Positions 17,187 through 55,300 of a DNA stretch of 64,000 bases are shown here, in pieces. A program made the position numbers and the translations under genes. Under the pieces are notes generated by a model. The model ran no database searches, was not told the origin of the DNA, and saw only the letters and a list, made by a program, of their open reading frames with translations. Origin of the DNA: a virus; IMG/VR virus record IMGVR_UViG_3300025771_000025, positions 1 through 64,000 of that record, one strand, 5' to 3'. Each line of letters opens with the position of its first letter. The stretch's first letter is position 1.

Positions 17187-18185
17187 ATGAGTGAAGAAAA
17201 TTTTGTAAAGATTGCCTTAGAAAATGGTGGATCTATACACCCACTGATTATTCCTTCAGAAGATCTTAAAGGACCAGCACTAACTAACCCATCAATTTAT
17301 AATGATAATGGAAAAATCATTGTAAATCTTAGAAATATTAATTATACATTGTATCATTCTGAATTGAATAAGTATGAACATCATTGGGGACCATTAGTTT
17401 ATATTCATCCAGAAAACGATTTACGTCTTCGCACTAAAAATATTATGTGTGAAATGACAGATGATATGTCTATTAAATATTATCATCATATTGATACTTC
17501 AGATTTTCCTGATAAAGAATTATGGGAATTTGTTGGATTGGAAGATGCTCGGATTATGAGGTGGGATGGTAAACTTTATATTTGTGGTGTAAGAAGAGAT
17601 ACCACTTATAATGGTCAAGGACGCATGGAGTTGTCTGAGATTGAGTTTACTGAAAATGGTGTTAAAGAATTAAAACAATATAGAATTCCAGTTCCTGGTG
17701 ACGATCAGGGTGACAAGACTTCTTATTGTGAAAAAAACTGGATGCCTGTCCTAGACATGCCGTTTCATTTTATTAAGTGGACTAATGGAACGGAAGTAGT
17801 TAAGTATAATATGGAAACAAATAAAACTGAAAGAGTTGCTCTCTCAGAATGGCAGGATTTGGGATGTATTGATTTGCGTGGTGGATCGCAAGTTTTAAAA
17901 TTGGATGATCAAAGACGTTTCTGTTTGAATCATGAGACATTCCTATATCAAAGTCCTGCAGGAAGAAAGGATGGAACATACAGGCATAGATTTGTTGTAT
18001 GGGATAAAGACTGGAAGATTACTAAAGTATCAAAAAGATTTTCTTTCTTAGGTGGTTCTATTGAATTTGCAGTTGGAATGTGTGAGTACGGTGATGATTA
18101 CTTGATGACATTTGGATTCCAGGATAATGCTGCATATTTGTTGAGAGTTCCCAAGCAAGTCGTTAAAAATTACATTTTTGAATAA
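17187..18185 (+). CDS. Glycosidase-like five-bladed propeller protein
   Basis: A 332-residue protein whose motifs suggest a GH130/GH43-like propeller: NPSIYNDNGKIIVNLRNINY (about 34-53), GLEDARIMRWDGKLYICGVRRD (117-138, split here only for description), NHETFLY, YRHRFVVWD and a closing GGSIEFAVGM...LRVP. The GLEDAR motif is typical of beta-mannoside phosphorylase-related proteins. Its chemistry cannot be fixed from sequence. It opens a glycan operon and overlaps the next start (TAATG). Confidence 0.6.
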   Translation: MSEENFVKIALENGGSIHPLIIPSEDLKGPALTNPSIYNDNGKIIVNLRNINYTLYHSELNKYEHHWGPLVYIHPENDLRLRTKNIMCEMTDDMSIKYYHHIDTSDFPDKELWEFVGLEDARIMRWDGKLYICGVRRDTTYNGQGRMELSEIEFTENGVKELKQYRIPVPGDDQGDKTSYCEKNWMPVLDMPFHFIKWTNGTEVVKYNMETNKTERVALSEWQDLGCIDLRGGSQVLKLDDQRRFCLNHETFLYQSPAGRKDGTYRHRFVVWDKDWKITKVSKRFSFLGGSIEFAVGMCEYGDDYLMTFGFQDNAAYLLRVPKQVVKNYIFE

Positions 18186-18961
18186 TGAAAATCGCTATAT
18201 GTATTTCTGGTGCTGTCAGGTATCCAGAATTTGCTGTTCGTAGTATTGAGAATATAACTAAAAATTATGAAGATCTAAAACTTTTTATTCATACTTGGAA
18301 GATATATGATCGTGAAGATTTTACGACAACGATACAGGGTTTAGAGTTAAAGGAAAAACAAAACATTGTAGAAACTGATCTTGGTATTATTGATCAAAAT
18401 CAATACAAGTATGAGACTTTACTCATTGAAGATTATGAAAGTAAAAAACATCATTTTCAAAAAATATATGATTGTTTAGATACCAATCCCTTTATACCAG
18501 ATACATGTATTAAACCAAGGCATGATATTGGTTACATAAGTATGTTGTACTCTATTTGGAAAAGTAATCAATTAAAAAAAGATTATGAGAATGAAAACAA
18601 TATTGTTTTTGATAGAGTTATACGGATGAGATTTGATAGTGATTTTGAAGGTAAAGAATTGGATTTGAAAAAGTTACCAGATTGTATTAATATTCCAAAA
18701 GGTGAAGATTGGTGTGGTGGAGTTAATGATCAATTTGCATTAGGTACATCACAATTGATGGACATATATTCTGATTTATATAATAATCTCACTAATATGG
18801 GTACCATTGATTATCATCCAGAATCTATTCTTCGTGATTATTTGAACAGTATGCAAATAGAACTTAATAGATTTCCTTTCAATGTTATTATCAATAACAA
18901 AAAAGATTTTAGGAGATACTGGTATGGTGAACACTATTCCGCAGAAACTCACGTTTACTAA
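18185..18961 (+). CDS. Glycosyltransferase-like protein
   Basis: A 258-residue protein starting with MKIAICISGAVRYPEFA, the N-terminus of a glycosyltransferase-like family found in marine bacteria and viruses. An SMLYSIWKSNQLK helix follows, then FDRVIRMRFDSDF (about residues 140-155), whose DSD is a candidate DxD metal/nucleotide-sugar site. One-base overlaps with both neighbours indicate co-translation. Donor and acceptor are unknown. Confidence 0.6.
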   Translation: MKIAICISGAVRYPEFAVRSIENITKNYEDLKLFIHTWKIYDREDFTTTIQGLELKEKQNIVETDLGIIDQNQYKYETLLIEDYESKKHHFQKIYDCLDTNPFIPDTCIKPRHDIGYISMLYSIWKSNQLKKDYENENNIVFDRVIRMRFDSDFEGKELDLKKLPDCINIPKGEDWCGGVNDQFALGTSQLMDIYSDLYNNLTNMGTIDYHPESILRDYLNSMQIELNRFPFNVIINNKKDFRRYWYGEHYSAETHVY

Positions 18962-19837: not shown

Positions 19838-20470
19838 ATGAACATATTAATAACTCCAGGAAATACTGCAACACATTACTTATTACGATGGTTGGGAAAA
19901 GGACCAACATTAGATGGATCAACTTATAGCGTTCATAGTAGATTTAAAAAAGAAGGATTGCCTATAGAATATTCTAATAATTATATAAAATATAAGAATG
20001 GACATAAAATTCATTATTTAATGTGTAATCCTTATGACTATATTTTAGCTTCCTTCCGCAGAGGATTTCCTAGTGAAACATGGGTTCATTGGAGAGAATG
20101 GTGTTGTGGCGATCCAACTTATTTTAAGGTTGGTAATACAATAACCCTTAAAGAATACTTACTAAATCCTTATGATGCGGTTCAATATAAATCTCACTTA
20201 ACGGGTTATGTTGAAAATCCCAATAGTGAATATGAATTTTTATTCACCAAGTATGAGTCTTTGGGTGATATTAAAGTTCAAGAAGAGATTAGAAATTATT
20301 GGGGAGTCCCTAAAAACCATCCTAAACTTAATTTTAAGGAAAGAAAAACAAGTTGGGAAAAAGAAACAGAAGAAATAAAACAATTGTTGGAACAAAAATT
20401 GGGAGAGGAATATAAATGGTTTACTAATCTTCCTGACTATTTTAAACTAAAACCTGGAGAAGTATTATGA
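19838..20470 (+). CDS. Sulfotransferase-like protein
   Basis: A 210-residue protein. HYLMCNPYDYILASFRRG is reminiscent of the 3'-phosphate-binding R-x-P-x-D-x-hydrophobic-S motif of sulfotransferases, KYESLGD (around residue 137) of their RYEDL motif, and the acidic/basic C-terminus of their RKG region. A canonical N-terminal P-loop (PKSGTT) is absent; MNILITPGNTATHYLLRWLG stands in its place. The call is therefore tentative. It ends with an ATGA overlap to a methyltransferase. Confidence 0.4.
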   Translation: MNILITPGNTATHYLLRWLGKGPTLDGSTYSVHSRFKKEGLPIEYSNNYIKYKNGHKIHYLMCNPYDYILASFRRGFPSETWVHWREWCCGDPTYFKVGNTITLKEYLLNPYDAVQYKSHLTGYVENPNSEYEFLFTKYESLGDIKVQEEIRNYWGVPKNHPKLNFKERKTSWEKETEEIKQLLEQKLGEEYKWFTNLPDYFKLKPGEVL

Positions 20471-21111
20471 AATGGAAAAAAGATCTTGTTTGTGATATCA
20501 GAACTTTTACTGAATATGATGATTTAGATTATGAGCAAAATGATTTTTTTAAAAATTATGTAAGATCTGATAATTGTAAAGAAGTAACTGAATGTAATAG
20601 ATCAAATCTTTTAGAACAATTTTTAAAAGTAAAAGATCATGCTAAAGCAATTCTTGAGATTGGTATTGCTAGAAATGATGAAGAATCATTTGTTCATGTA
20701 TTAACTTCAAATAAAAGACATGAGACTATATACGTTGGTCTTGATCTTGAAGATAGGTCTTTTATAAGGGATCCAGATAATAACATTCATACCATTCAGA
20801 ACAATAGTTCATATATTGATGAAAATGTTGGTATGTTTGACCAGTTTTGGGGAATTAAAAAATTTGATTTCATTTTTATTGATGGATGGCATAGTATTAA
20901 TCAAGTATTGACTGATTGGGAATATACTAAATTGTTAGCACCGAATGGAATAGTTGGTTTACATGACACAACGTGTCATCCAGGTCCAAATAAATTTATT
21001 AATAATTTGGACAAAACTAGATGGGATGTTATTGAAAATGCATGTCCTCAAGATTGGGGAATTGGATTTGCTAGAAAAAAGAGATACAATAAGTTTATTG
21101 AGGTAAAGTGA
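20467..21111 (+). CDS. SAM-dependent methyltransferase (Methyltransf_24-like)
   Basis: A 214-residue class I methyltransferase. Motif I is AILEIGIAR (Glu64, Gly66), an acidic strand end follows at GLDLED (about 91-96), and FIFIDGWHS (Asp139-His142) plus GIVGLHDT (His166-Asp167) are the hallmark loops of family 24. Members methylate sugars or other small acceptors. It starts at an ATGA overlap with the previous gene and its stop directly abuts the next ATG. Confidence 0.8.
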   Translation: MKWKKDLVCDIRTFTEYDDLDYEQNDFFKNYVRSDNCKEVTECNRSNLLEQFLKVKDHAKAILEIGIARNDEESFVHVLTSNKRHETIYVGLDLEDRSFIRDPDNNIHTIQNNSSYIDENVGMFDQFWGIKKFDFIFIDGWHSINQVLTDWEYTKLLAPNGIVGLHDTTCHPGPNKFINNLDKTRWDVIENACPQDWGIGFARKKRYNKFIEVK

Positions 21112-21834
21112 ATGAACATTTTAATACCAATGGCGGGTGAAGGAACTAGATTTCCTAGAGATACTTACAAAATACCAAAACCTTTAATTGATATACACGG
21201 TGTTCCAATGATACAAAGAGCTATTGAGTCTCTTGGTATGAATGGTACATATCATTTTGTAATCAGAAAGGATAGTTATTATGATCAGGTTTGCACATTA
21301 CTTCACAACATTCTTCCCGATGCAAAAATAATCAGTGTAGAAGAAACAACCGAAGGTCCTGCATCTAGTTGTCTTTTATTTAAAGATTATATTAATAATG
21401 AGGATGAACTTGTTATTGCCAATTGTGATCAAATTATGTGGTGGGATTCTGATCTTTTCTTGACAACTGCTAGATATTATAAGTATGATGGTGTTGTTGT
21501 AACTTATAGCACAACTACTCCTAAAAATAGTTATGCTAAAATTGATAAAAATGGTTTTGTTAAATTGATAAAAGAAAAGGAGGTATTGAGTGACATTTCT
21601 TTAAATGGTATTCATTACTGGAGAAAGGGTAAGTACTTTGTACAAAGTACTGAGAGTATGATAGAATGTGATGATAGAGCACCTAATGGTGAATTTTATG
21701 TTGGACCTTCTTACAATCATATGATAAAGAAGGAGTTAAAAGTTGGTATTCATCATATTCCAAATTGGCAACATAATCCAGTTGGGGTTCCAGAAGATTT
21801 AGATTCCTTTCTTATGAAATATGAAAATTACTAA
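21112..21834 (+). CDS. Sugar nucleotidyltransferase
   Basis: A 240-residue NTP_transferase-fold protein. The N-terminal G-E-G-T-R-F-P (9-15) and IPKPLIDIHG (21-30, Lys23) are the classical nucleotide- and phosphate-binding signatures of sugar-1-phosphate nucleotidylyltransferases such as RmlA or GlmU. VIANCDQ (about 102-108) holds the metal-binding Asp, and NGEFYVGPSYN (about 192-202) is typical of the distal sugar-binding part. It would activate a sugar phosphate for the neighbouring glycosyltransferases. Which sugar cannot be told. Confidence 0.85.
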   Translation: MNILIPMAGEGTRFPRDTYKIPKPLIDIHGVPMIQRAIESLGMNGTYHFVIRKDSYYDQVCTLLHNILPDAKIISVEETTEGPASSCLLFKDYINNEDELVIANCDQIMWWDSDLFLTTARYYKYDGVVVTYSTTTPKNSYAKIDKNGFVKLIKEKEVLSDISLNGIHYWRKGKYFVQSTESMIECDDRAPNGEFYVGPSYNHMIKKELKVGIHHIPNWQHNPVGVPEDLDSFLMKYENY

Positions 21835-22147
21835 ACTTTCCGATTACACTAGAGGGTGGATCATTGGTGATTTTGAACCCTCTATTTTTAGAACAAAAGA
21901 TTTTGAAGTGGCAGTTTTAAATCATAAAAAGGGTGAAGAGTGGCCTGCACATTATCATAAAAAGGGTATAGAATATAATGTTCTAGTTTCTGGAAAAATG
22001 ATAATTCAAAATAAAGAAATAAACAGTGGTGATGTATTCGTACTAGATAGATATGAAGTTGCAGATCCAGTGTTTTTGGAAGACTGCACAGTAGTATGTG
22101 TAAAAACACCATCTATACCATCAGACAAATTTGAGGTTAAATTATGA
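21821..22147 (+). CDS. Cupin-fold protein
   Basis: A 108-residue single-domain cupin. His44 and His46 (PAHYHKKGIEYNVLVSG) with Glu51 form the first metal motif, and GDVFVLDRYEVADP resembles the second. Small cupins in glycan clusters often act as sugar isomerases or epimerases, but this one is shorter than RmlC. It overlaps the nucleotidyltransferase by 14 bases and the next gene by ATGA, so it probably acts on the same sugar. Confidence 0.7.
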   Translation: MKITKLSDYTRGWIIGDFEPSIFRTKDFEVAVLNHKKGEEWPAHYHKKGIEYNVLVSGKMIIQNKEINSGDVFVLDRYEVADPVFLEDCTVVCVKTPSIPSDKFEVKL

Positions 22148-22818
22148 AATTCAATCAAGTACTTTACAATAGTTTCACATCTCCAACTGATTTATGTCAT
22201 ATTGGTGAAAAATATAAAACAGACAAATCTTCATTAGTATATGAAATGGGGCGTCATTCCTATACTCCTTTTTATAATTTTTTATTTTCTAATCTTAGAC
22301 ATAAAGACATTGTGTTTGGTGAGATTGGTATATATAAAAATGCATCTATGAAGATGTGGAGAGAGTATTTTTCGCAGGCTACTCTATATGGTTGGGATTG
22401 TAAATTGGAACACTGTACAGAAACTCGCTATCAATATGATTTTGTCCAACTTGCTAAAAATGATAATCTTCATAACGTTCATTATGATTATATAAATGTT
22501 AGGGATGAACAATCAATTCTTGAAGCATTTGAAAAAACAGGTACTAAATTTGATATTATTATAGACGATGCCAGCCATGAGTTTTGGGATCAGGTAAAAG
22601 TAATTTCAAATGTTCATAAGTATTTAAATCCTGGAGGAATTCTTATAGTTGAAGACGTTGACTACGCAATCCAATCATATGCAAATTTTCTTGAACAATA
22701 TAATAATGATAAGTATTATTGTAATATTACTCAAGTAAAGACATATGGTTCTAATAAAACATATGGATTTGCTGGTGATGAGATATTGGTTTTTATAAAA
22801 AATGAGGTTAAAGTATGA
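22144..22818 (+). CDS. SAM-dependent methyltransferase
   Basis: A 224-residue methyltransferase of the group resembling sugar O-methyltransferases and cephalosporin-hydroxylase-like proteins. The N-terminus has DKSSLVYEMGRHSYTPFY (about 27-44). Motif I is FGEIGIY (58-64), IIIDDASHEFWDQV (138-151) carries the DD-S-H metal motif, and GGILIVEDVD (164-173) follows. The acceptor is unknown, but the gene is translationally coupled (ATGA) to both the cupin and the RuBisCO-like gene. Confidence 0.8.
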   Translation: MKFNQVLYNSFTSPTDLCHIGEKYKTDKSSLVYEMGRHSYTPFYNFLFSNLRHKDIVFGEIGIYKNASMKMWREYFSQATLYGWDCKLEHCTETRYQYDFVQLAKNDNLHNVHYDYINVRDEQSILEAFEKTGTKFDIIIDDASHEFWDQVKVISNVHKYLNPGGILIVEDVDYAIQSYANFLEQYNNDKYYCNITQVKTYGSNKTYGFAGDEILVFIKNEVKV

Positions 22819-24053
22819 AATTTTTTAGAGAATTAACAGAACAAGAAAAAAATCGTTGTGTTGTTGCTACATTTTACATCGAAACATATGAAAATATAGG
22901 CAACTTGCGAGATGCTGCTTGGGCACTTGCAATTGGACAAAGTGTGGGTAATCCAAAAGTTCGTAATCGTTGGGAAAGTGATGATCTTTTTGAACTTGCA
23001 TCATGCGTCATTTACGACGATGAAGAAAAATTAACTAACATGACTTCTGGTGAAGTAAAGATTGGTTTCCCTAAAGTGAATACTGATTGGGAAGGTGATG
23101 GTATTTCTCATCTGATGTGTCAGTTAATGGGTGGACAACTTGATATTGATGTCTTCAAAACATGTAGACTCAGAAAACTTGATTTTCCTGCTGATGTTGA
23201 AGCACAGTTTTTGGGACCTAAGTATGGTATTGATGGTATCCGTAGGTTTGTTAATCGTTACGATAAACCACTTTCTGGTGCTATTGTTAAACCAAAAACT
23301 GGAATCTCTCCACAAACTCTTTCGGAGATGGTTAAAGAACTTCTCGATGGTGGAGTAGATTTTATTAAAGAAGATGAGATTCTTTCCAATCCATCTTTTT
23401 GCCGTCTTGAAGATCGTGTAGAACTTATTTCAAATCTTGTTAATGAATGTGGTAGGGGAGTAATTTACTGTTTCTGCATTAATGGTGATCACCATACTAT
23501 CCTTGATCGTGCAAAGTTTGTTGCAAATAATGGTGGTAATGGTATTCACATTAATTTCTGGAGTGGACTTGGTGTTTACAATTCCGTGAGGAAGATGGAT
23601 CTTCCAATGTTTGTTCATTATCAGAAGAGTGGAGATAAGATTCTGACTGATAAGCGTCATAACTTTGGTATCGATTGGAGTGTTCTTTGTGACCTTGCAG
23701 GTCTCTGTGGTGTTGATACTATCCATGCTGGTATGTGGGGTGGATATTTGAGTGATGATGAAGCAGAACTGCATACCGTGATGGATACTTTGCATCATAG
23801 AAATGTCCTACCAGCACTCAGTTGTGGTATGCATCCAGGTATCGTCAACACTACTGCTGAGAAGTTTGGAACTGATTTCCTAGCAAACTGTGGTGGTGCA
23901 GTTCATGGACACCCTGGTGGCACTCTCTCTGGTGCTTTAGCAATGCGACAAGCGATTGATAAGAATCCTGGAGAGGAATTCCGTGCTGCTATTGATAAGT
24001 GGGGATATGAAACTGGTGGTGGATCTCTTCCAGAATGGGTTTTAGAGTTTTGA
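22815..24053 (+). CDS. RuBisCO large-chain superfamily protein (RuBisCO-like)
   Basis: This 412-residue protein aligns along its length with RuBisCO large chains. KPK (159-161) matches K175/K177 of plant RuBisCO. GGVDFIKEDE (179-188) carries Lys185, Asp187 and Glu188, equivalent to carbamylated K201, D203 and E204. His268 and His304 match H294 and H327, Ser336 matches S379, and GGAVHGHPGG (360-369) matches the second phosphate loop. The loop-6 Lys334 position is Tyr311, R295 is Tyr269 and H298 is Ser272, so true carboxylase activity is doubtful. Form IV relatives act on sulfur- or sugar-derived compounds. It sits inside the glycan operon with ATGA coupling upstream. Confidence 0.88.
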   Translation: MKFFRELTEQEKNRCVVATFYIETYENIGNLRDAAWALAIGQSVGNPKVRNRWESDDLFELASCVIYDDEEKLTNMTSGEVKIGFPKVNTDWEGDGISHLMCQLMGGQLDIDVFKTCRLRKLDFPADVEAQFLGPKYGIDGIRRFVNRYDKPLSGAIVKPKTGISPQTLSEMVKELLDGGVDFIKEDEILSNPSFCRLEDRVELISNLVNECGRGVIYCFCINGDHHTILDRAKFVANNGGNGIHINFWSGLGVYNSVRKMDLPMFVHYQKSGDKILTDKRHNFGIDWSVLCDLAGLCGVDTIHAGMWGGYLSDDEAELHTVMDTLHHRNVLPALSCGMHPGIVNTTAEKFGTDFLANCGGAVHGHPGGTLSGALAMRQAIDKNPGEEFRAAIDKWGYETGGGSLPEWVLEF

Positions 24054-24054
24054 T

Positions 24055-24534
24055 ATGATTATCATTGCTCATAGGGGAAATGTAGATGGTCCTAATCCTG
24101 AAAGGGAAAATAGTCCAGATTACATTGATGAAGCCTTATCGATGGGATATGACGTAGAAATTGATTTGAGATCGAAAGATAAACAACTTTTTCTTGGACA
24201 TGATAAACCTCAATATCCATTGAAACTTGGGTGGCTTTATAAGCATAGAGAAAGACTCTGGATTCACTGTAAAGATCGTGAATCCTTAGAGTTCTGCTCT
24301 TCTACGGTCATGAATTTACATTACTTCTATCATGAAAATGATAGGTATGCTTTAACCAGTAGGGGTATTGGGTGGGTATTAGTAGGACAAATACCATATA
24401 ATAACTCAATCATTGTTCTACCAGAGTCCATTTCTTATTACAATAAATACGAAGAAAGATACGATAGAATATTATCAACAAAAGGTATCTGTACAGATAA
24501 TTGCAATTATTATAGGAGAGAGTTGTCTGAATGA
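24055..24534 (+). CDS. Short glycerophosphodiester phosphodiesterase-like protein
   Basis: A 159-residue protein with the N-terminal catalytic signature of GDPD enzymes: His6-Arg7-Gly8, Glu18-Asn19, Glu35-x-Asp37 and His49-Asp50. Full GDPD domains are about 230-250 residues, so the C-terminal half of the TIM barrel seems reduced. It begins two bases after the RuBisCO-like stop, and its end overlaps the next gene by ATGA. It may cleave a phosphodiester-linked lipid or glycan head group, or be a binding remnant. Confidence 0.7.
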   Translation: MIIIAHRGNVDGPNPERENSPDYIDEALSMGYDVEIDLRSKDKQLFLGHDKPQYPLKLGWLYKHRERLWIHCKDRESLEFCSSTVMNLHYFYHENDRYALTSRGIGWVLVGQIPYNNSIIVLPESISYYNKYEERYDRILSTKGICTDNCNYYRRELSE

Positions 24535-27500
24535 AGATTTCATTAATATGTGCTTGTAAAAATAGAAATGAAGCATTAAGAGTTTCATTAAATTCTTGGT
24601 TAAATTACTCAGAAATATCAGAAATTATTATTGTTGATTGGAAATCTGTCAAACCATTAAAAAATCTAACTCAACTGGACGAAAGGATTAAAATCATTCG
24701 TGTAGATGATGTTGAGTATTTTAATCAACCACAACCATTAAACTTGGCTGCTCAACAAGCGACTGGAGATTACATACTTAAGGTTGATTGTGATTATATA
24801 ATGAGTCCATATTATTCCTTTTTCAACAAATATAAGATTGATGAAAATTCATTTGTTAGTGGAAAATCTTCTATAAAAAGTCCAGAATTTTATGATGAAG
24901 AGAGTGGTCTTCATAAATTTGATAAAATGAAGATGAGTGTTGAGCAAATGCAAGATTATTACGATTCTTATAGTTCATACTATAGGTATTTGACAGGTCT
25001 TCTTTTTGTTTCAAAGGAACATTTTATTAATATTGGTGGATATAACGAATCGTTTTCAGATTTTTACTCATTTGAAGATGATGAGATTTATAAAAGATTA
25101 GAGATTTATGGATTAGAGCACAAGAAATTAGATTTTGATTATCATCTAATTCACATGCCTCATCCAGACAATAAACGATTTGAAAACTTTCGTTCAACCT
25201 ATGAGCAAAGAGAAATAAGAGATATTATAAGAGCAAATCTTTCTGGTTGTTATAGTGGTGATGATTTAGAATGGCAAACTGATTACGTTTTAGCAATGAA
25301 ACACAATCAGATTAACCGTGCTAAAGTGGATGAAGTATCTGGAGCATACGTTAAGTGTGAAACTAAATGGATAGTTTCTTCTGAAGGTGGTCGTTATTAC
25401 ACAGCATCTATTGATAATAACCAACATCAACTGGATAAAAATAAATTAAAAAATCTTCCACCAGTTAATTTTATTAGTGTTGAACATTCTGAAGAGAGGA
25501 GAGAAAATTTATATAAAATATTTTCAGAGTATGGTATACTAGAAGATCATATAACTCCTCATATATTTAAAAAATATGATGATAGTGAGCATCAAATTCA
25601 AAGTGGGTACTTACATCGATTAAGTATTGGTAGTAGAGGTCCAGTAACTTCTCATTTAAAGGCCATTAAAGAATGGTTGAATGACACTGAAGAGGAATAT
25701 GCTTTTTTCTGTGAAGATGATATCTCCTTAGAATCTGTAAAATATTGGGACTTTACATGGGAAGAGTTTTTTAACTCTTTACCTCCACAATGGGAATGTG
25801 TTCAACTTTGTTTACTTAGAGAATATGAGTATGGTTTAGATATTAAATTTAAAACTAGAGAATGGAGTGATTGGTCTGGATGTGCATACTTAATTAGTAG
25901 AAAATATGCACAAAAATTGATTGATACATATTATTATGATGATGTATTCCATCTTGATTCCAAATGTCACGATGTAGAATACAGACCAGACTGGGCTATT
26001 GTACCAGTTATTGAAACTATTATCTTTGGATTGAGTGATGAAGTTTATGTAATTCCTCTCTTTTTAGAAGATATTTCCTTTAAAGCATCATATCAAATTG
26101 ACGGTGAAGATGATAATGTAAATGTTCACCATCATAATTCACACAATATTGTCCTTAATAAATGGAAAGAAATGGCATTTAAATTGAATCAAAGTAAAGA
26201 GATACCAAACAAAATAAAATTTGTAAACTTTCCTAGCGTTTACTATATAAGTTTAGAGGAAAGTGTTGAACGGAGAAATAAACTTAATAAACAATTTTTT
26301 AGTTGTGGTGTAGAAAAAACTGTTGGTGTAATTTCCAAGAGATTTTCTGAATCTGATGATAAATTAGAAGGAGAGCAGTTACATATACTTGATGATGGTA
26401 CAAAGGGATGTGTAGTATCTCATATCAAGATGATTAAAAAGTGGTATGATGAAACTGATGAAGAGTATGCATTCTTTTGTGAAGATGATCTAAGCCTTGA
26501 GACTGTTAATGATTGGAATTTTTCTTGGACAGAATTTATTCAAAGTCTTCCAGAAGATGCTGAATGTGTTCAACTCTGCTGTGTACGAGATGGTCAGGAA
26601 GAAGTGAGATTGCGTGATAGATCAATGTATGATTGGTCTGTAACCGCATATATTTTAACCAGAGGGTATGCTAAAAAAATAATTGATCATTATTTTGATA
26701 ATAATACTTATACTTTAAATATTCCAAACTCCAATTTTTATCCAATGCCAGAAAATGTAATTTTCTATGGACTTGGTAAAGTTTATTCTATAAATCTTTT
26801 TGTTGAAGATCAAAATCATCCTTCTACTTTTTATGGGAAAGAGGGATTATCTGATAAAAACAAAGCACATCATGTTGAAACATATAAATTTGTCACAGAT
26901 TGGTGGAAAAATAACAATGTTTCACTTGGCGCACTGCTTTCTGTAACTTCCGAAAAAGATACTGAAATTGTAGAAGAAAAAAAAAGTATTGGAAGGGAAA
27001 GGACTGAGTTAGAGCAGTTATTGTATGAATATTCTTTAGATTGTGAGGATGCACAAAAAAATTACAACCTTGGAATATGGTATGAAAAAGAAGGGCACAC
27101 TGCACCAGCACTTTCATATTTCTTGAGAGCCGCTGAAAGGTTTGAAAGTGAAGATATGCAATATGAAGCAATAATTAAGTGCCATCATTGTTATGATAAA
27201 CAAGGAACAAGAGATGGTACAGCAGAATCATTACTGCAGCAAGCGTTATGTATAAAACCAACTAGACCAGAAGCATACTTTTTGCTTGCAAGATTCCATG
27301 AGAAAAGATCGCAGTGGAGTCACTGTTATCAATTTGCCTGCCAGGGTTTGACTTTATCTGATTTTGATTCTCCAAAAACAACACATGATGTTGAATATCC
27401 TGGAAGACTTGGTTTACTTTTTGAAAAAGCATCTTCTGGTTGGTACTGGGGTAAAGTTGAAGAATCTAAAGAAATTTTTCTAGATTTGATTGATAACTAT

Positions 27501-27575
27501 AATCTTACTCCGTATTATCATAATCTTATTGTTGATAATTTGAAGCACTATGATATTGAACGCGAAAAAAAGTAG
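24531..27575 (+). CDS. Three-domain glycosyltransferase (GT2 + 2x GT25-like) with TPR tail
   Basis: A 1014-residue fusion. Residues 1-230 are a GT-A/GT2-like domain (ISLICACKNRNEALRVSLNS, DCD at 86-88). Residues about 306-530 and 566-790 are two copies of a GT25-like domain, each starting with a hydrophobic strand and an S-x-ERR motif, then VSH/TSH-K-I-K-W, then EEYAFFCEDD-x-SLE (DD near 393 and 650). Residues about 823-1010 are TPR-like helices (NYNLGIWYEKEGHTAPALSY, then a second set). GT25 includes LPS and collagen galactosyltransferases. The two GT25 copies imply internal duplication; TPRs suggest a protein partner or protein acceptor. Confidence 0.75.
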   Translation: MKISLICACKNRNEALRVSLNSWLNYSEISEIIIVDWKSVKPLKNLTQLDERIKIIRVDDVEYFNQPQPLNLAAQQATGDYILKVDCDYIMSPYYSFFNKYKIDENSFVSGKSSIKSPEFYDEESGLHKFDKMKMSVEQMQDYYDSYSSYYRYLTGLLFVSKEHFINIGGYNESFSDFYSFEDDEIYKRLEIYGLEHKKLDFDYHLIHMPHPDNKRFENFRSTYEQREIRDIIRANLSGCYSGDDLEWQTDYVLAMKHNQINRAKVDEVSGAYVKCETKWIVSSEGGRYYTASIDNNQHQLDKNKLKNLPPVNFISVEHSEERRENLYKIFSEYGILEDHITPHIFKKYDDSEHQIQSGYLHRLSIGSRGPVTSHLKAIKEWLNDTEEEYAFFCEDDISLESVKYWDFTWEEFFNSLPPQWECVQLCLLREYEYGLDIKFKTREWSDWSGCAYLISRKYAQKLIDTYYYDDVFHLDSKCHDVEYRPDWAIVPVIETIIFGLSDEVYVIPLFLEDISFKASYQIDGEDDNVNVHHHNSHNIVLNKWKEMAFKLNQSKEIPNKIKFVNFPSVYYISLEESVERRNKLNKQFFSCGVEKTVGVISKRFSESDDKLEGEQLHILDDGTKGCVVSHIKMIKKWYDETDEEYAFFCEDDLSLETVNDWNFSWTEFIQSLPEDAECVQLCCVRDGQEEVRLRDRSMYDWSVTAYILTRGYAKKIIDHYFDNNTYTLNIPNSNFYPMPENVIFYGLGKVYSINLFVEDQNHPSTFYGKEGLSDKNKAHHVETYKFVTDWWKNNNVSLGALLSVTSEKDTEIVEEKKSIGRERTELEQLLYEYSLDCEDAQKNYNLGIWYEKEGHTAPALSYFLRAAERFESEDMQYEAIIKCHHCYDKQGTRDGTAESLLQQALCIKPTRPEAYFLLARFHEKRSQWSHCYQFACQGLTLSDFDSPKTTHDVEYPGRLGLLFEKASSGWYWGKVEESKEIFLDLIDNYNLTPYYHNLIVDNLKHYDIEREKK

Positions 27576-27577: not shown

Positions 27578-28399
27578 ATGCGGAATAATAATGAGTATGA
27601 AAAACATGATATTATTCTGCAAGGAAAATATGATGAATTTACCAATGATGTAATAGAAAGTTATTTAAATATTCCTTTCGTTAATAATATAATTTTATCC
27701 TGTTGGGATGATGATGATTTATCATCCCTCAGAGATATTATTGATAAAAATGTAGATAGAATTGTATTAGTACCGAACAAAAAACCTACAAATACTGGAG
27801 ATGATAATGTCAATCTTCAAATTTTCTCCTCTTTCAGTGGTATAAAAAAATCTACAACAGAGTATTCTATAAAAATGCGTACCGATCAGTTATATGATCA
27901 TAAGAGTATGCTCAATATGTATGAATTTTTTATAGAGAACAGAGAGAAAGATCGTATATTTGTACCAGGATTATATCCACATCTTCTATTCCACCCCAGA
28001 GATCATCTTTTCTGGGGAAAAACTGAAGATTTATATAAATTATTTGATATACCATTAAAAACATATAACATTACAGATCTGGTAAAAATATCAAAGAATG
28101 ATCTGTGGAAATATTATCCATATTTTACTAGATCTGAAACTTATATTGGAGCACATTATTGTTCTAATTTTGATGATCGTGTCAAGATAATGCTAATCCA
28201 ACAAGATAAGTATCTATATGATAATTGTCAACAATGGGATGAATCTCATGAGATTAGCACTAATCTATCAAAAAGGTTATTTAAATCTTTCCCTAAAAAA
28301 GGTATTGATTTAAAATGGCCTAAAAAAGATCTTATGTCATACCCATATGATGATCAAAAAAATGGTTACAATGAATGTTGGCATGAGGATGGAGTATAG
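27578..28399 (+). CDS. WavE-like polysaccharide synthesis protein
   Basis: A 273-residue protein with the WavE pattern: DIILQGKYDEFTNDVIESYL at the N-terminus, then IILSCWDDDD, then SIKMRTDQLYD (about 98-108), whose R-x-D resembles a GT-A metal site. WavE was described in Vibrio LPS core synthesis. It ends the sugar operon, three bases after the large glycosyltransferase. The donor and acceptor are unknown. Confidence 0.6.
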   Translation: MRNNNEYEKHDIILQGKYDEFTNDVIESYLNIPFVNNIILSCWDDDDLSSLRDIIDKNVDRIVLVPNKKPTNTGDDNVNLQIFSSFSGIKKSTTEYSIKMRTDQLYDHKSMLNMYEFFIENREKDRIFVPGLYPHLLFHPRDHLFWGKTEDLYKLFDIPLKTYNITDLVKISKNDLWKYYPYFTRSETYIGAHYCSNFDDRVKIMLIQQDKYLYDNCQQWDESHEISTNLSKRLFKSFPKKGIDLKWPKKDLMSYPYDDQKNGYNECWHEDGV

Positions 28400-28417: not shown

Positions 28418-28651
28418 TTGTTTAAAATTTTTACTAGAAAAAATTGTAAGTATTGCTATAAAGTTAAACAAGTGATAGAATTAACAGGTAACTCTTATGA
28501 GGAACTTACTCTGGGAAAAGATTTTACCAGGGATGATTTTATTTCTAAATTTGGAAGTGAATCAACTTTTCCTCAAGTAATTTATGAAGATGAATACTTG
28601 GGTGGATGTACAGATACAATTAAATTTTTAAAAGAAAAACAATTTGTCTAA
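28418..28651 (+). CDS. Glutaredoxin
   Basis: A 77-residue glutaredoxin with redox motif Cys10-Lys-Tyr-Cys13 and the cis-Pro motif TFPQV followed by GGCTDT, the glutathione-binding Gly pair. The start is a TTG at 28418, supported by an AGGAGG Shine-Dalgarno at 28402-28407 ten bases upstream. T4-like phages use glutaredoxins to reduce ribonucleotide reductase; here it is the first gene of the small-gene region. A TTG start may lower expression. Confidence 0.85.
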   Translation: MFKIFTRKNCKYCYKVKQVIELTGNSYEELTLGKDFTRDDFISKFGSESTFPQVIYEDEYLGGCTDTIKFLKEKQFV

Positions 28652-31424: not shown

Positions 31425-31587
31425 TACGACAAGAGCTAAACGTCTTGTAAAATTGCTTGAAAGACTTATCAAGCAAGATCATCTTTATGATGAAGAAAGG
31501 ATTGTAGAAATGAAAAAAGAACTTTCCAATCTTAAAGAACAAATTTCCGAAATTGAAAAACAAAATTACAAAGGATTTGGTAAATGA
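31417..31587 (+). CDS. Small coiled-coil protein
   Basis: 56 residues from the ATG at 31417 (MTDTTRAKRLVKLLERLIKQ). The second half has heptad-like spacing (MKKELSNLKEQISEIEKQ), indicating a coiled coil. It ends with an ATGA overlap to thyX and overlaps the upstream gene by eight bases, so all three form one translational unit. Function unknown. Confidence 0.6.
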   Translation: MTDTTRAKRLVKLLERLIKQDHLYDEERIVEMKKELSNLKEQISEIEKQNYKGFGK

Positions 31588-32222
31588 CCGTAAAACTGAT
31601 TAGTGTAACTCCAGATGCAGAAGAAACTATGGCATATGTTGCCAGAGTTTCTAATCCTGCAAATCAAGAAAACGAAAAATATGCAGGACTTTTGAAATAT
31701 TGTATTAAACATAATCACTGGAGTGTATTTGAGCAAAGTTTCATGACTCTGGAGATTGAAACTACCAGGGCAATCGCAGCTCAAATTTTGCGTCACCGTT
31801 CGTTCACATATCAAGAGTTTTCCCAGCGGTACGCTGATTCATCTCTGTTAGGTTTTGATAAGATTCCACTACCAGAACTTCGTAGGCAAGACACGAAGAA
31901 TCGCCAAAATTCTATTGATGATTTGGATCCTTTTGATGTTCAGACTCTGCAACTTCAGATGCAAACTCTCTTTGATTCTTCCATGGCTTTGTACAAGCAA
32001 ATGCTTGGACGTGGTGTCGCAAAGGAATGTGCAAGAAATGTGCTTCCACTCTGCGTACCAACAAAAATCTACATGTCAGGATCATGCAGGTCATGGATCC
32101 ATTATATAACTCTGAGGTCTGCAAACGGCACTCAGAAAGAGCACATGGATGTAGCAAATGGATGTAAGAAGATTTTTATTGAACAGTTTCCAACAGTTGC
32201 TGAAGCACTTGAATGGGTATAA
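31584..32222 (+). CDS. thyX: Flavin-dependent thymidylate synthase ThyX
   Basis: A 212-residue ThyX that makes dTMP from dUMP using FAD and methylene-tetrahydrofolate. The signature RHRSFTYQEFSQRY (70-83) is the RHR-x7-S motif that binds flavin and dUMP. C-terminal SWIHYITLRSANGTQKEHMD supplies conserved substrate contacts. ThyX is common in marine T4-like phages, replacing the T4 td enzyme, and supports nucleotide supply for replication. Confidence 0.95.
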   Translation: MTVKLISVTPDAEETMAYVARVSNPANQENEKYAGLLKYCIKHNHWSVFEQSFMTLEIETTRAIAAQILRHRSFTYQEFSQRYADSSLLGFDKIPLPELRRQDTKNRQNSIDDLDPFDVQTLQLQMQTLFDSSMALYKQMLGRGVAKECARNVLPLCVPTKIYMSGSCRSWIHYITLRSANGTQKEHMDVANGCKKIFIEQFPTVAEALEWV

Positions 32223-32503: not shown

Positions 32504-33262
32504 ATGGCAAGAAGAAAAAGAGGATCTGCAGAGCAACCTATTGGGGTTGGACTCACTGTAAAGCAGATGAAGCGTAGAAAACCATTAGGGTTAGAATATC
32601 TTATTGATATTGAACCTATTACTGATAATCAAAAAACTTATTTTGATTCATATAAAGAAGATAAACATCTAGTTGCCTATGGTTGTGCTGGAACTGGTAA
32701 AACGTTTATTACTCTTTATAATGCACTTAAAGATGTATTAGATGAAAATAGTCCTTTTGAAAAAATTTATTTGGTTAGATCGTTAGTTGCAACCAGGGAA
32801 ATTGGTTTTTTACCTGGTACTCATGAAGATAAAGCAGACATTTATCAAATTCCATATAAAAATATGGTGAAGTATATGTTTCAAATGCCCAGTGATGCAG
32901 ATTTTGAAATGCTTTACGGTAATTTGAAGTCACAAGAAACGATTAAGTTTTGGAGCACTTCTTTTCTTCGTGGAACTACTCTCGATAATGCAATTATTAT
33001 TGTTGATGAATTTCAAAATCTAACTTTCCACGAACTTGATAGTATAATTACACGAATCGGTGAAAACTCTAAAATTATGTTTTGTGGTGATGCCACTCAG
33101 TCTGATTTAACAAAGACTAATGATAAGAATGGTATCTTTGATTTTATAAAAATACTGCAAACTATGCCTTCTGTCGATCTTGTTGAGTTTGATGTTAATG
33201 ATATTGTAAGATCTGGTTTGGTTAAAGAATATCTTCTTGCAAAACAAGAAACTAATTTATGA
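32504..33262 (+). CDS. phoH: PhoH-like ATPase
   Basis: A 252-residue P-loop protein. Walker A is GCAGTGKT (60-67), Walker B is AIIIVDEFQN (163-172, Asp168-Glu169), and CGDATQSDL (194-202) is the sensor-like motif typical of PhoH. The N-terminal DNQKTYFDSY matches the Q-motif. PhoH-like proteins are near-universal in marine T4-like phages; the biochemical role is thought to be RNA- or DNA-related NTPase/helicase activity. Confidence 0.92.
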   Translation: MARRKRGSAEQPIGVGLTVKQMKRRKPLGLEYLIDIEPITDNQKTYFDSYKEDKHLVAYGCAGTGKTFITLYNALKDVLDENSPFEKIYLVRSLVATREIGFLPGTHEDKADIYQIPYKNMVKYMFQMPSDADFEMLYGNLKSQETIKFWSTSFLRGTTLDNAIIIVDEFQNLTFHELDSIITRIGENSKIMFCGDATQSDLTKTNDKNGIFDFIKILQTMPSVDLVEFDVNDIVRSGLVKEYLLAKQETNL

Positions 33263-52332: not shown

Positions 52333-55300
52333 ATGGCAAGAATTAATATCTACAGTACAAATCAACCGCCTGAGCAACTATCTCTTTTAGAGATAGATGA
52401 TCTTAAGGTTGGAACAGGTGTTACCGTATATGGTAATACTGGTATTGTTAGTGCAGTTAGTGTCTATGCTCAAAATTATTATGGTGATGGATCTAACTTA
52501 GAGAACGTTGGTATAGAAGTTAGTGCAATTGATACATTAACTATAGACCCTGAAACTGGGAATGGTGTAATTAGTAATCAGATTACAAATGTAAAAGCAA
52601 TACGTTTTGATACTGATTCTGGATTTGCAGTATCTGATTTGGGTGATGGTGCTGTACAAATTGCCCTTAATAGTACGTTTAAATATTGGGAAGTTGATGG
52701 GCAAGATACATTAGAAGCCGAAGGTCTTGATACTGTAAAAATAGTAGCTGGTGTTGGTATTGCACTTACAACACAAAACATTGATGGTGATAAAAGATTA
52801 ACGATTACTGGAACCGTAGGTGCTCAAGGTCTCCAAGGTACTTTAAGTAATTTTCAAGGAACACAAGGATTACAGGGATTACAAGGACATCAGGGATTAC
52901 AGGGAAATCAAGGATTACAAGGTAATCAAGGAACACAGGGAAATCAAGGACTACAAGGTGTACTTGGTAATTTTCAAGGAACCCAAGGACTCCAAGGTGC
53001 TCAAGGTTTACAAGGTTCTCAGGGGTCACAAGGATTTCAAGGACTCCAAGGTGCTCAAGGACTCCAAGGTGCTCAGGGTGTACTTAGCAATTTCCAAGGA
53101 CTTCAAGGTTCAAAAGGATCTCAAGGCGCACAAGGATTCCAAGGTGTTCAGGGTTTAATTGGTGAGCAAGGTAATAAAGGTGATAGTGGTGGAACAATAT
53201 GGAGATTTAATACTTCTACAACACAGGGAGATCCTGGTAATGGATACTTTAGATTTGATAATAATACTCCAGCAGATATAACAAAAATATACATTGATAA
53301 TATTGATAGTGTAGGTAAGAATCAAACTGCATGGTTTGATGATTGGGAAATTTTAGGATCAAAACCAACTGTAGGATATTTGCATTTACAATCTTCTTCC
53401 CCAGACGGAACTATTTCTTATATTTTTGAAGTTACTGATGTAAATGCTGGTACTCAGGGTGCTTTTAATACTTATTATACACTTACTGTCAATCTTTTAA
53501 CAGATACTACTAGTACAATAGGTGCAAATACAAAGATTGCATTTTTCTTCGCTCCTATTGGAAGGCAAGGTGTTCAAGGTTTACAAGGTTTACAAGGATT
53601 CCAAGGTGTCCAGAGTGCTCAAGGTCTTCAAGGACTTCAAGGACTTCAGGGTCCTTTAAGTAATTTTCAAGGAACTCAAGGATTACAAGGTTTACAAGGT
53701 GTCCAGAGTGCTCAAGGTCTTCAAGGACTTCAAGGACTTCAAGGTGTAATTAGCAATTTTCAAGGAACTCAAGGATTACAAGGTAATCAAGGAACACAGG
53801 GAAATCAAGGACTACAAGGTGTAGTTGGTAATTTCCAAGGAACTCAAGGTTTACAAGGTGTACAATCTAATCAAGGAACTCAGGGACTCCAAGGAGTTCA
53901 AGGACTCCAAGGACTTCAAGGACTTCAGGGTCCTTTAAGTAATTTTCAAGGAACTCAGGGTGTTGTTGGATTTCCTAATGGTGTACCTTATGAATTTGAT
54001 AGTGAAACTCAGAGACCACTTGATCCAGGTGGAATTAGTAATATTTTATATCGAGTCGCAAATGGAACACTAAAATTTAATAATCTTTCAATTGCATCAG
54101 TTAATAGAATTTTTATTTCGGTACAAGATTATTATGGAGTATCAAGATCTAATTGGATTAACGGGTGGGATGATCCTTCATTCACAAACACTATAAAAGG
54201 ATCTTTAACTATTTCATCAGCGGAAACTAACAATCCTGGAGCTGTTATATTTTATGTTACTCAAGTTGAAGATGTAACAATAAATGGATTTTCTGGTAGT
54301 CATAGATTCTTAGAGGTTTATGTTACTTATCTTTCTGGTTCTTCTAGTTTTGATGATACAGAGAGATTATCTATCTCATTTAACCCTACTGGTGTTCAAG
54401 GTCTTCAGGGTGTTCAAGGTCCTTTAAGTAATTTTCAAGGAACACAAGGATTACAGGGATTACAAGGACATCAGGGTGTTCAAGGATTACAAGGACTTCA
54501 AGGTAATCTAAGTAATTTCCAAGGAACACAGGGAAATCAGGGTGTTCAAGGATTACAAGGACTTCAAGGATTACAAGGACTTCAAGGTTTACAGGGTTTC
54601 CAAGGCACTCAAGGATGTCAAGGATTTCAAGGACTTCAAGGTTTACAGGGAATGCAAGGACTTCAGGGTCCTTTAAGTAATTTTCAAGGTGTTCAAGGAT
54701 CTCAAGGATTCCAAGGTCTCCAAGGATTACAAGGTTTACAAGGTGTCCAGAGTGCTCAAGGTCTTCAAGGTCTTCAGGGTCTTCAAGGTCTTCAGGGTCT
54801 TCAAGGTAATATAAGTAATTTCCAAGGTACACAAGGAATGCAAGGACTTCAGGGTCCTTTAAGTAATTTTCAAGGTGTTCAAGGATCTCAAGGATTCCAA
54901 GGTGTTCAAGGTCCTTTAAGTAATTTTCAAGGAACTCAAGGTCTCCAAGGTCTCCAAGGATTACAAGGTATACAAGGTAATCAAGGAACTCAAGGTGTCC
55001 AAGGTCTCCAAGGATTACAGGGATTACAAGGTAATCAAGGTACTCAAGGACTTCAAGGTTTACAGGGATTACAGGGATTACAAGGACTTCAAGGATTACA
55101 AGGACTTCAAGGTTTACAGGGATTACAAGGTTTACAGGGATTACAAGGTGTAATTGGCAATTTTCAAGGTACTCAAGGACTACAAGGAAATCAGGGTGTT
55201 CAAGGTCTTCAAGGTTTACAGGGAGTTCAATCTACACAAGGAACACAGGGTCTTCAGGGACCTCAGGGTGTTCAAGGTACTCAAGGTACTCAGGGTGTTC

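Follow-up and report, generated by a model that had tools for sequence, protein, structure and literature searches.

A RuBisCO-like protein encoded with a nucleotidyltransferase cassette in T4-like phages: a possible sugar-phosphate isomerase in glycan synthesis

RuBisCO-like proteins (RLPs) are established in methionine salvage and in sugar-acid breakdown. The RLP of R. rubrum is described as a 5-methylthioribulose-1-phosphate (MTRu-1P) isomerase (A1998), which precedes a cupin-like MTXu-5P sulfurylase (A2000) in the MTA-isoprenoid shunt (PMC4958253). The Global Ocean Sampling survey of 2007 reported 65 marine RuBisCO sequences outside all four forms, and the accessible part of the survey links these outlier groups neither to viruses nor to a gene context or function (PMC1821046). 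RuBisCO genes from Lac Pavin have been assigned to CPR and DPANN genomes, and the accessible part of that report mentions none in phages (PMC9875498). No report placing an RLP among phage glycan genes was recognised among the titles and abstract openings of the open PMC literature. The locus described here lies in the window, a 64,000-nucleotide stretch of the virus record IMGVR_UViG_3300025771_000025. The genome around the RLP gene is T4-like and cyanophage-related. All coordinates refer to the plus strand of the window.

The RLP gene (22815..24053, ATG to stop) encodes a protein of 412 amino acids. Its product matches the family PF00016 (RuBisCO_large) with an E value of 1.1e-42 and 146.8 bits, the cut-off being 30.1 bits. 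The N-terminal domain family PF02788 gave no match at E ≤ 1e-3, though the structural match spans residues 1-402. At the same threshold 99 PDB sequences match the RLP, and all of the 60 matches listed are RuBisCO or RLP. The predicted model has a mean pLDDT of 92.4 and shows the two-domain RuBisCO fold with a TIM barrel. It superimposes over the whole fold on the form III RuBisCO of Pyrococcus horikoshii (2cwx; Z 43.0, rmsd 2.1, 379 residues aligned, 27% identity). Further matches are the DK-MTP-1P enolase MtnW (2zvi, Z 42.7; 2oem, Z 42.3) and the RLP structures 1tel (Z 39.8) and 2qyg (Z 40.0). Chance or artefact is ruled out by the PF00016 match, the pLDDT value and the fold match to 2cwx. 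On the profile match and the predicted model, the window protein is a member of the RuBisCO superfamily. The preliminary description, made from the sequence letters, had proposed such an open reading frame with a TIM-barrel fold; both proposals were borne out, and of the two profiles it named only PF00016 was matched. PHROGs yielded no family for the RLP. A BFVD fold search listed 50 matches, with a top TM-score by query of 0.38, and no RuBisCO is named among them.

The residue numbers and residue roles used below are those customary for RuBisCO. Residues were counted in 83 viral, 23 cellular and 24 reference sequences; an earlier comparison covered 37 representatives. The Mg/carbamate core of RuBisCO is kept. 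The motif K159-P160-K161 (23289..23297), equivalent to K175 and K177, is invariant in the viral and cellular sequences, and so are K185, D187 and E188 of the motif K185-E186-D187-E188 (23367..23378), equivalent to K201, D203 and E204. E186 is invariant across the clade and is found in none of the 24 references. The S379, G381 and G403 equivalents of 2cwx are also shared. In the phosphate loop G360-G361 (23892..23897; G403/G404), G360 is invariant in the clade, and the second position is Gly in 83/83 viral and 20/22 cellular sequences. In contrast to 2cwx, the loop-6 Lys334 position is occupied by Y311 (23745..23747). Tyrosine is found here in all 83 viral sequences and in all 22 cellular sequences reaching the site, whereas 23 of the 24 references have the lysine. 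The loop-6 lysine is also missing from MtnW. The positions of E60, T65, N123 and H294 hold Gly, Asn, Gly and Gln in all 83 viral sequences; MtnW differs from the clade in having Lys at the N123 position. Thus, the clade does not have the residues of a bona fide RuBisCO (Lys334; E60, T65, N123, H294, R295).

The region of residues 268-274 had been read with the R295 and H298 equivalents as Tyr and Ser. This reading is out of register: HMMER and MAFFT align H268 with H292, Q270 with H294, K271 with R295 and D274 with H298 (Q270 to D274, 23622..23636). The catalytic residue truly lost here is His294, replaced by Q270 in 83/83 viral sequences. The residues equivalent to the C5-phosphate ligands are variable. 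The R295 position holds Lys in 43 and Ser in 40 of the viral sequences, and in those 40 K271 and D274 become Ser and Ala. H304 (23724..23726; H327 position) is His in the window protein, as first described, but it is not constant (29 His and 8 Gln among the 37 representatives; 33 His and 50 Gln among the 83 viral sequences). Lys271, Asp274 and His304 change as a block to Ser, Ala and Gln in 40/83 viral sequences. The remaining assignments of the preliminary description (K159-P160-K161, K185/D187/E188, S336, G360/G361, and Y311 for the loop-6 lysine) are all found in the window protein and do not vary among the 37 representatives.

Judged by these residues, the RLP is a form IV RuBisCO-like protein in the broad sense, that is, a homologue without at least one essential carboxylase residue. 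Because the loop-6 lysine, H294, E60, T65 and N123 have been lost, the clade protein is almost certainly not a carboxylase. Annotation pipelines may label its gene as rbcL, an auxiliary metabolic gene for carbon fixation. Viral rbcL genes are indeed on record: the accessible parts of the respective reports describe an 'RbcL-like' cluster from landfill together with rbcL among 100,000 sampled IMG/VR viruses (PMC12607003), a soil viral rbcL1 reported active with rbcS (PMC12615777), and viral rbcL from the Great Salt Lake (PMC8506154) and from an estuary (PMC13390420). For the RLP a carbon-fixation role is extremely improbable, since those five residues are replaced in every viral sequence, the type III equivalog score is far below its cut-off and the genes around it belong to glycan synthesis.

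All NCBIfam scores of the RLP lie under the respective cut-offs: 201 of 497 bits for type III, 190 of 438 for PRK04208, 105 of 489 for PRK13475, 122 of 514 and 163 of 409 for the two MtnW-type enolase (mtnW) models, and 156 of 700 for the OiaX equivalog. In the trees the RLP clade forms its own branch with 100/100 support, apart from the known forms sampled, the OiaX and MtnW branches included. Neither tree contains identified IV-DeepYkr, IV-Photo or IV-GOS members or the R. rubrum RLP, and nine alphaproteobacterial RLPs placed near MtnW are unclassified. The larger tree (84 rows) was built after dropping sequences below 340 amino acids (below 350 for loci L114-L165), near-copies of at least 80% identity, the fragment L213 and 11 of the 14 form I rows of the class sample, one of which also fell below the length limit; the rows of the smaller one (38) were hand-picked from this set. 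Membership in OiaX or MtnW is excluded by the equivalog scores and the tree position, so the two analogues named at first were not upheld, while the phylogeny proposed along with them resolved a distinct and, in the sequences compared, mainly viral clade. The outlier sequences of the ocean survey may include members of this clade.

In the 38-row tree the nearest branch, weakly supported (87/83), is that of OiaX and the RLPs linked to four-carbon acid sugar kinases. Like the RLP, OiaX has Gly at the N123 position; the members of that branch differ from it in keeping the loop-6 lysine and H294. One reading is that the RLP, in the manner of OiaX, decarboxylates or isomerises a sugar-acid phosphate of the branched or 3-oxo type, giving the nucleotidyltransferase a rare sugar phosphate. 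We regard this as unlikely. The OiaX equivalog score is low. A four-carbon acid sugar kinase gene adjoins the RLP gene in nine of ten annotated plasmid records (in the tenth, that of OiaX, the downstream gene lies outside the part viewed), whereas none was found among the neighbour proteins scanned here. The replacement by RpiB described below also points to isomerisation rather than to decarboxylation.

Viral relatives of the RLP number in the hundreds in IMG/VR, where one scan gave 239 and another 297; the best 80 of the 239 were used, and the best 80 of the 297 were nearly all repeats of these. A two-motif IMG/VR scan built on the known forms yielded five viral matches, all of which fall in the RLP clade. 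A tblastn search of the 50,697 named phage records of INPHARED found no RLP. Among cellular genomes, the SAR11 order sample contained the RLP in 2/247 genomes, one being the centre genome and the other known beforehand. At E ≤ 1e-60 the Azospirillum class sample (1/337) and the Patescibacteria phylum sample (1/286) each returned the centre genome itself. The Legionella genus sample gave 5/22: three had been known before, L169 was new, and the fifth was a 40-position match with an E value of 8.6e-4.

In the window the RLP gene is part of a cassette in which adjoining genes share 14 or 4 bases or are separated by a single base. The first gene (21112..21834) encodes a nucleotidyltransferase of the sugar-phosphate type with 240 amino acids (PF00483, E 1.8e-8; profile match to 4evw, E 3e-36). 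It is followed by a gene for a small putative cupin of 108 amino acids (21821..22147), with 20 of the 27 bits required for Cupin_7 and weak matches to cupin PDB entries (best E 1e-4). An optional methyltransferase gene (22144..22818; PF13847, E 6e-8), whose family is present in 14/165 loci, separates the cupin gene from the RLP gene. Downstream of the latter lies the gene of a miniature GDPD-like phosphodiesterase of 159 amino acids (24055..24534). Its model (pLDDT 94.8) has the predicted GDPD fold, with Z 11.3 against the GDPD 1o1z in VIA-align, and the best Foldseek E value is only 2.5e-3. The residues H6, E35, D37 and H49, which we take to be the His pair and the acidic metal ligands of GDPDs, are invariant in 28/28 sequences. 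Compared with 1o1z and 7e0v, the protein is shortened by 67-96 residues. Pfam GDPD gave no match to it at E ≤ 1e-3, nor to its L083 counterpart at E ≤ 0.1. Glycosyltransferase genes of the LPS type follow: 24531..27575 encodes a protein of 1014 amino acids with GT2 and GT25 regions (PF00535, PF02709, PF01755), and 27578..28399 a WavE-like LPS synthesis protein (PF07507, E 4e-14). Upstream, a methyltransferase gene directly precedes the nucleotidyltransferase gene (20467..21111; PF13578, E 9e-7; family in 60/165 loci), and a DUF7796 protein gene (18185..18961; PF25072, E 7e-11) belongs to a family recurring in 55/165 loci.

The cassette recurs. Among 133 viral RLP loci (130 records, three of them counted twice), many of which are cut by contig ends, the nucleotidyltransferase is present in 124, the GDPD-like protein in 106 and the cupin in 102. 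Complete or partial cassettes also occur in SAR11, Azospirillum, Elusimicrobia and Patescibacteria. All four genes are found in 5/23 cellular loci, for example in an Elusimicrobia genome (L098), Azospirillum oleiclasticum (L099) and a Patescibacteria genome (L086). The nucleotidyltransferase gene is present in 21/23 cellular loci, including those of SAR11, Legionella and a nanoarchaeon. Judging from these constant partners, the RLP would help to make an activated sugar for surface decoration. The initial proposal, a form-IV-like protein with a different chemistry encoded within a glycan operon, is well supported, with Lys334 and His294 gone, the partners recurring and glycosyltransferase genes following.

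In 85 viral loci the cupin gene lies directly ahead of the RLP gene, and this recalls the R. rubrum arrangement of an RLP isomerase followed by a cupin. A similar salvage of methylthioadenosine is nevertheless very improbable for the RLP. The same cupin family occurs without the RLP in 67 cupin-anchored loci, 56 of them with RpiB, the mtnW score is low, and neither MTA phosphorylase nor MTR-1P isomerase was found among the neighbour proteins scanned. The most constant partner is the nucleotidyltransferase, for which we know of no role in the MTA-isoprenoid shunt. A methionine-salvage role, the context of MtnW, was rejected for the RLP, as the partners do not fit.

A second type of cassette is found in phages without the RLP. 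In the cyanophage Bellamy a related nucleotidyltransferase carries a fused LacAB_rpiB isomerase domain (E 3.9e-32). A cupin follows, and both are accompanied by a kinase of the PfkB type and a HAD phosphatase. The phage SynMITS9220M01 encodes a near-identical fusion. The two cassettes share with the window homologous nucleotidyltransferase, cupin and GDPD-like genes and the same kind of glycan cluster. They differ in having the RpiB domain in place of the RLP and, in Bellamy, also PfkB and HAD. In locus L299 the genes are contiguous in the order HAD, PfkB, nucleotidyltransferase, cupin and GDPD-like protein. RpiB is present in none of the 133 viral RLP loci. Conversely, the 97 loci anchored on RpiB or on the cupin all lack the RLP, and RpiB is encoded in 86 of them; they come from 73 distinct records, of which 62 contain RpiB, and a single query per anchor also collects related loci. 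The Bellamy-type PfkB and HAD genes are likewise absent from the 133 RLP loci, and another type of PfkB occurs in three (L013, L137, L138). Among the cupin-anchored loci, the 56 with RpiB contain PfkB in 54 and HAD in 52 cases, and the 11 without RpiB contain both in all cases.

The same pattern was seen in 48 whole records (30 of 130 with the RLP and 18 of 73 others), picked mostly for record size. RpiB is found in 0/30 RLP records versus 16/18 others, and PF00016 in 30/30 versus 0/18. PfkB at E ≤ 1e-3 occurs in 3/30 versus 18/18; above the Pfam cut-off all three of the RLP records remain but just 9 of the 18 others, and one of the three genes is some 4 kb away from the RLP gene. In trees thinned at 75% identity, a single branch sets off the RLP-type cupins from the others, and the RpiB-type nucleotidyltransferases form one clade apart from L270. 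Read from these trees, the exclusion of RLP and RpiB amounts to roughly one evolutionary switch or a few; given this topology, counting it as 133 independent cases was dropped.

The replacement of the fused or adjacent RpiB, PfkB and HAD enzymes supports the earlier suggestion that the RLP serves the nucleotidyltransferase. It is unlikely that the RLP instead acts upstream of or parallel to the nucleotidyltransferase on an unrelated intermediate, such as a sugar already nucleotide- or phosphodiester-linked, the RpiB pattern being a coincidence of lineage. The small number of switches would suit this, the GDPD-like partner suggests a phosphodiester in the pathway, and a LicD gene (E 1e-42) adjoins the RLP-nucleotidyltransferase pair in Legionella nautarum, the only one of the three Legionella loci examined for it. 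Against it, the fusion and the gene order of L299 tie the replaced enzymes to the nucleotidyltransferase, and the Legionella unit consists of the RLP with the nucleotidyltransferase, having neither cupin nor GDPD-like gene.

We propose, with a probability of roughly 0.48, that the RLP has the RuBisCO fold and works as a sugar-phosphate isomerase (or epimerase), supplying the substrate of the adjacent nucleotidyltransferase. A Mg2+ ion would be bound, probably on carbamylated Lys185, with Lys159 and Lys161 as proton shuttles. A phosphorylated ketose would be converted into an enediolate, from which the carbonyl would be moved or a centre inverted. Since the loop-6 lysine is Tyr and His294 is Gln, neither CO2 nor O2 would be added and the reaction would halt at this step. 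The product would pass to the nucleotidyltransferase, directly or via one further step, to give a nucleotide-activated sugar, which the glycosyltransferases of the operon may place on host LPS or virion proteins. The same pathway would include steps for the cupin and the GDPD-like hydrolase. The isomerase of R. rubrum with its pathway cupin is a precedent, although it belongs to sulfur salvage.

Some observations run counter to the isomerase reading. Eleven loci have the nucleotidyltransferase, cupin, kinase and HAD genes (ten also the GDPD-like gene) and neither RpiB nor RLP, which may mean that the pathway can do without an isomerase; the HAD and PfkB enzymes could serve a different sugar pathway encoded in this cluster. 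Further, the RLP lacks His294, a residue near the RuBisCO metal site, and the cupin and GDPD-like genes are missing in Legionella.

A distinctly unlikely variant is that the RLP converts a ketose-1-phosphate into an aldose-1-phosphate in one ring-closing step and hands the nucleotidyltransferase a ready sugar-1-phosphate. Ring-closing isomerisation of this kind is carried out by MtnA. The RLP would then replace three enzymes, the RpiB isomerase, the PfkB kinase and the HAD phosphatase. The C1-phosphate glycines are kept and the C5-phosphate residues are lost as a block in 40/83 viral sequences, which fits a monophosphate held at C1. To our knowledge, such a reaction would be new to the RuBisCO superfamily, and the RLP would be the first with a nucleotide-sugar role.

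Since all five two-motif matches fall in the RLP clade, rbcL annotations in viruses possibly refer in some cases to this protein and not to a carbon-fixation enzyme. Comparison of the RLP with the RpiB, kinase and phosphatase set narrows the enzyme to a short list of testable substrates. The product of the pathway would show which surface sugar is installed by marine T4-like phages during infection. If the proposal is true, this mostly viral clade extends the RuBisCO superfamily to biosynthesis, in the assembly of glycans.

The open reading frame at 22815–24053 on the plus strand of the window encodes a RuBisCO-like protein (RLP) of 412 aa. Its assignment to the RuBisCO superfamily in the preliminary description was borne out by a profile search, in which it matched RuBisCO_large (PF00016, E 1.1e-42), and all of the 60 PDB matches listed, of 99, are RuBisCOs or RLPs. 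The RuBisCO fold is also predicted by an AlphaFold2 model built from 28 aligned relatives (mean pLDDT 92.4). The form III RuBisCO 2cwx aligns with this model over 379 residues with Z 43.0 and rmsd 2.1, and MtnW (2zvi), a known member of the superfamily, does so with Z 42.7. By its gene content, the virus, whose record comprises 66,039 bases, is a relative of the T4-like cyanophages. Its gp32-like protein aligns with those of the cyanophages S-SKS1 (91% of its length) and P-SSM2 (78%) at 86–89% identity, and the window contains genes for base-plate gp53, PhoH and ThyX. The ThyX gene (31584–32222), the PhoH-like gene (32504–33262) and a glutaredoxin gene (28418–28651) are located downstream of the glycan operon. 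Megablast of 24 kb of the window returned only short matches in three records, which places the virus far from every named phage searched. An open reading frame of 2904 aa occupies positions 52333–61047.

Most of the active-site residues named in the preliminary description hold in the alignments, namely K159, K161, K185, D187, E188, H304, Y311, S336 and the GG loop. The register at 268–274, where Tyr and Ser had been placed at the R295 and H298 equivalents, had to be revised: H268 corresponds to H292 of RuBisCO, Q270 to H294, K271 to R295 and D274 to H298. Across 83 viral and 23 cellular sequences of the clade, the positions of K175, K177, K201, D203 and E204 (RuBisCO numbering) are invariant, and E60, T65, N123 and H294 are replaced by Gly, Asn, Gly and Gln in every sequence. 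The loop-6 lysine is Tyr in every one of these sequences that reaches the site, and S379, G381 and G403 are retained in all that reach those sites. In the reference rows H294 is present in 24/24 and the loop-6 lysine in 23/24. From this constrained catalytic core we infer that the RLP is an active enzyme, though one that, judged by these residues, could hardly stabilise a carboxylation step. Positions 271, 274 and 304 correspond to the residues with which RuBisCO binds the C5 phosphate. They read Lys-Asp-His in 33 viral RLPs, Ser-Ala-Gln as a block in 40 and Lys-Asp-Gln in 10. The substrate probably needs one phosphate only.

Scans of IMG/VR returned 239 relatives with the window RLP as query (the best 80 of 239 were analysed) and 297 with the clade alignment (the best 80 of 297 were returned); a tblastn search of the named phage records at E<=0.01 gave no RLP match. 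An alignment of forms I, II, III and OiaX-type sequences retrieved five viral relatives, all belonging to this clade (profile scores of 523–716 bits), in a scan based on two motifs that does not itself prove the absence of true RuBisCO from viruses. Among bacterial and archaeal genomes 32 relatives were found, 23 of them in the RLP clade and nine being other RuBisCOs. The carriers are SAR11 and another alphaproteobacterium, Azospirillum oleiclasticum, three Legionella species, Elusimicrobia, Verrucomicrobia, Patescibacteria, Bacteroidota and DPANN archaea. A viral origin is possible for some of the short "cellular" contigs, and the samples of the larger taxonomic groups suggest that the RLP is rare in cells. 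In an 84-row tree, an SH-aLRT support of 100 sets 45 clade members apart from 39 known forms; the split recurs at 100/100 in a careful tree built from 38 of the 84 rows. OiaX together with the RLPs linked to four-carbon-acid kinases forms the nearest branch, weakly (87/83). Viral and cellular members are intermixed, which suggests gene transfer. One locus, L157, contains a tandem pair of RLP matches; the PF00016 match in its record has four internal stops, and one copy seems broken or misassembled.

The Global Ocean Sampling report describes 65 marine sequences outside all known RuBisCO forms (PMC1821046), and these may include the RLP clade. Viral rbcL genes are described as carbon-fixation genes in four papers (PMC12607003, PMC12615777, PMC8506154, PMC13390420). 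One of these reports soil viral rbcL active together with rbcS (PMC12615777), so not every viral rbcL call need be an RLP of this clade. Our searches of open PMC papers yielded none that we recognised as placing such a protein within a glycan cassette of a phage.

Clustering of the neighbours at 165 loci, nine of them outside the RLP clade, gave three dominant families: a sugar-type nucleotidyltransferase (NT, 141), a miniature GDPD-like hydrolase (GD, 110) and a small cupin (CU, 106). With profiles run on six-frame peptides, NT was found at 124, GD at 106, CU at 102 and all three at 79 of 133 viral RLP loci (130 records), many of whose contigs stop near the RLP gene. When only genes on the RLP strand and no more than three positions away are counted, the order is NT-CU-RLP-GD at 53/133 loci and NT-CU-RLP at 35/133. 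The window gaps are −14 bases for NT-CU, −4 for CU-methyltransferase, −4 for methyltransferase-RLP, +1 for RLP-GD and −4 for GD-glycosyltransferase, and this tight spacing points to one coupled transcript from NT to the glycosyltransferase. All four cassette genes are present at five of the 23 cellular loci (L082, L086, L087, L098, L099), with NT on the opposite strand in L086. The closest PDB profile match of NT is 4evw (E 3e-36). GD, with 159 residues, has a predicted GDPD fold (Z 11.3; best Foldseek E 2.5e-3), although no Pfam family was matched by the window copy. The cupin CU consists of a single domain, and its matches are only weak. The cassette is flanked in the window by LPS-type glycosyltransferases and methyltransferases, and epimerases, aminotransferases and additional methyltransferases recur at other loci. 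In Legionella nautarum, a divergent LicD gene (E 1e-42) adjoins the RLP-NT pair; LicD is a phosphotransferase family using CDP-linked donors.

Some loci deviate from this arrangement. At six SAR11 loci (L089, L091, L092, L094, L095, L097) the RLP lies between two NT homologues; in L089 the upstream homologue is without the usual G-x-G-x-R-F motif and could be a degenerate or regulatory protein. A gene family with a ThyX-like member is found directly upstream of GD-NT-RLP-NT in L089, L091, L092 and L094. The member scanned, a 315-aa protein at L092:3525–4472, matches PF02511 (E 7e-56), which puts a thymidylate synthase family member next to a sugar cassette. Nine viral loci (L025, L026, L031–L034, L036, L037, L071) carry an extra gene set immediately after the RLP, consisting of weakly fructosamine-kinase-like, 3-dehydroquinate-synthase-like and short-chain dehydrogenase genes. 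This set, of which one representative per gene was scanned, suggests a branch to a cyclitol or rare sugar.

Relatives of the partners also occur in named cyanophage records (NT in 19, 18 of them Synechococcus phages; GD in 16; CU in three, two being the same phage), none of which contains the RLP. The fusions of NT in such phages are a useful guide to the pathway. The NT of the cyanophage Bellamy carries a fused LacAB_rpiB domain (RpiB, E 3.9e-32) and is followed by the cupin; SynMITS9220M01 has a near-identical fusion. In S-CAM9 and B23 NT is fused to a HAD phosphatase domain, and in the cultured cyanophages L223–L227 it is joined variously to RpiB, HAD or a second NT domain. Bellamy and the locus L299 have two further genes upstream of NT, one for a HAD phosphatase and the other for a PfkB-type kinase whose matches fall just below Pfam's cut-off. 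L299 has neither RLP nor RpiB, and a 93-aa SET-domain protein (L299:7761–8042; PF00856, E 1e-12) adjoins its GD gene. RpiB was found at 0/133 viral and 0/23 cellular RLP loci. A further 97 loci, collected with NT-RpiB or the Bellamy cupin as anchor, stem from 73 distinct records; none has the RLP, and RpiB is present at 86 of these loci and in 62 of the records. The Bellamy-type PfkB and HAD genes are likewise absent from all 133 RLP loci; they are present at 54/56 and 52/56 cupin-anchored RpiB loci, respectively, and each at 11/11 loci that lack RpiB as well as the RLP. In whole records, PF00016 was matched in 30/30 with the RLP versus 0/18 others, RpiB in 0/30 versus 16/18, and PfkB at E<=1e-3 in 3/30 versus 18/18 (over Pfam's cut-off, 3/30 versus 9/18). 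The three PfkB genes in RLP records lie about 4, 30 and 41 kb from the RLP. The type found at about 4 kb is present at 3/133 RLP loci (L013, L137, L138) in a neighbouring gene group, perhaps as part of a heptose-type pathway beside the cassette. The tree of CU gave one branch and that of NT one clade plus the locus L270, and the GD tree has six changes between cassette types, two of them forced by well-supported branches. The trees imply few switches between cassette types; as a difference in gene content the replacement pattern is thus strong, but it is weakly replicated.

The first step of RuBisCO is the enolisation of a ketose phosphate at the Mg-carbamate site, and RpiB is a family of sugar-phosphate isomerases. 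An RLP of R. rubrum is reported to isomerise a ketose-1-phosphate (PMC4958253). We propose that the viral RLP would act as an isomerase feeding NT, the most economical reading, to which we give a probability of roughly one half. A stronger reading, in which the RLP would yield the sugar-1-phosphate directly and spare the kinase and the phosphatase, seems unlikely to us. Confidence in both readings is slightly lowered by the PfkB counts over Pfam's cut-off. The clade itself is real, conserved and mainly viral, with recurrent partners; its function is what we infer, and the gene partners of the RLP define a short list of tests.
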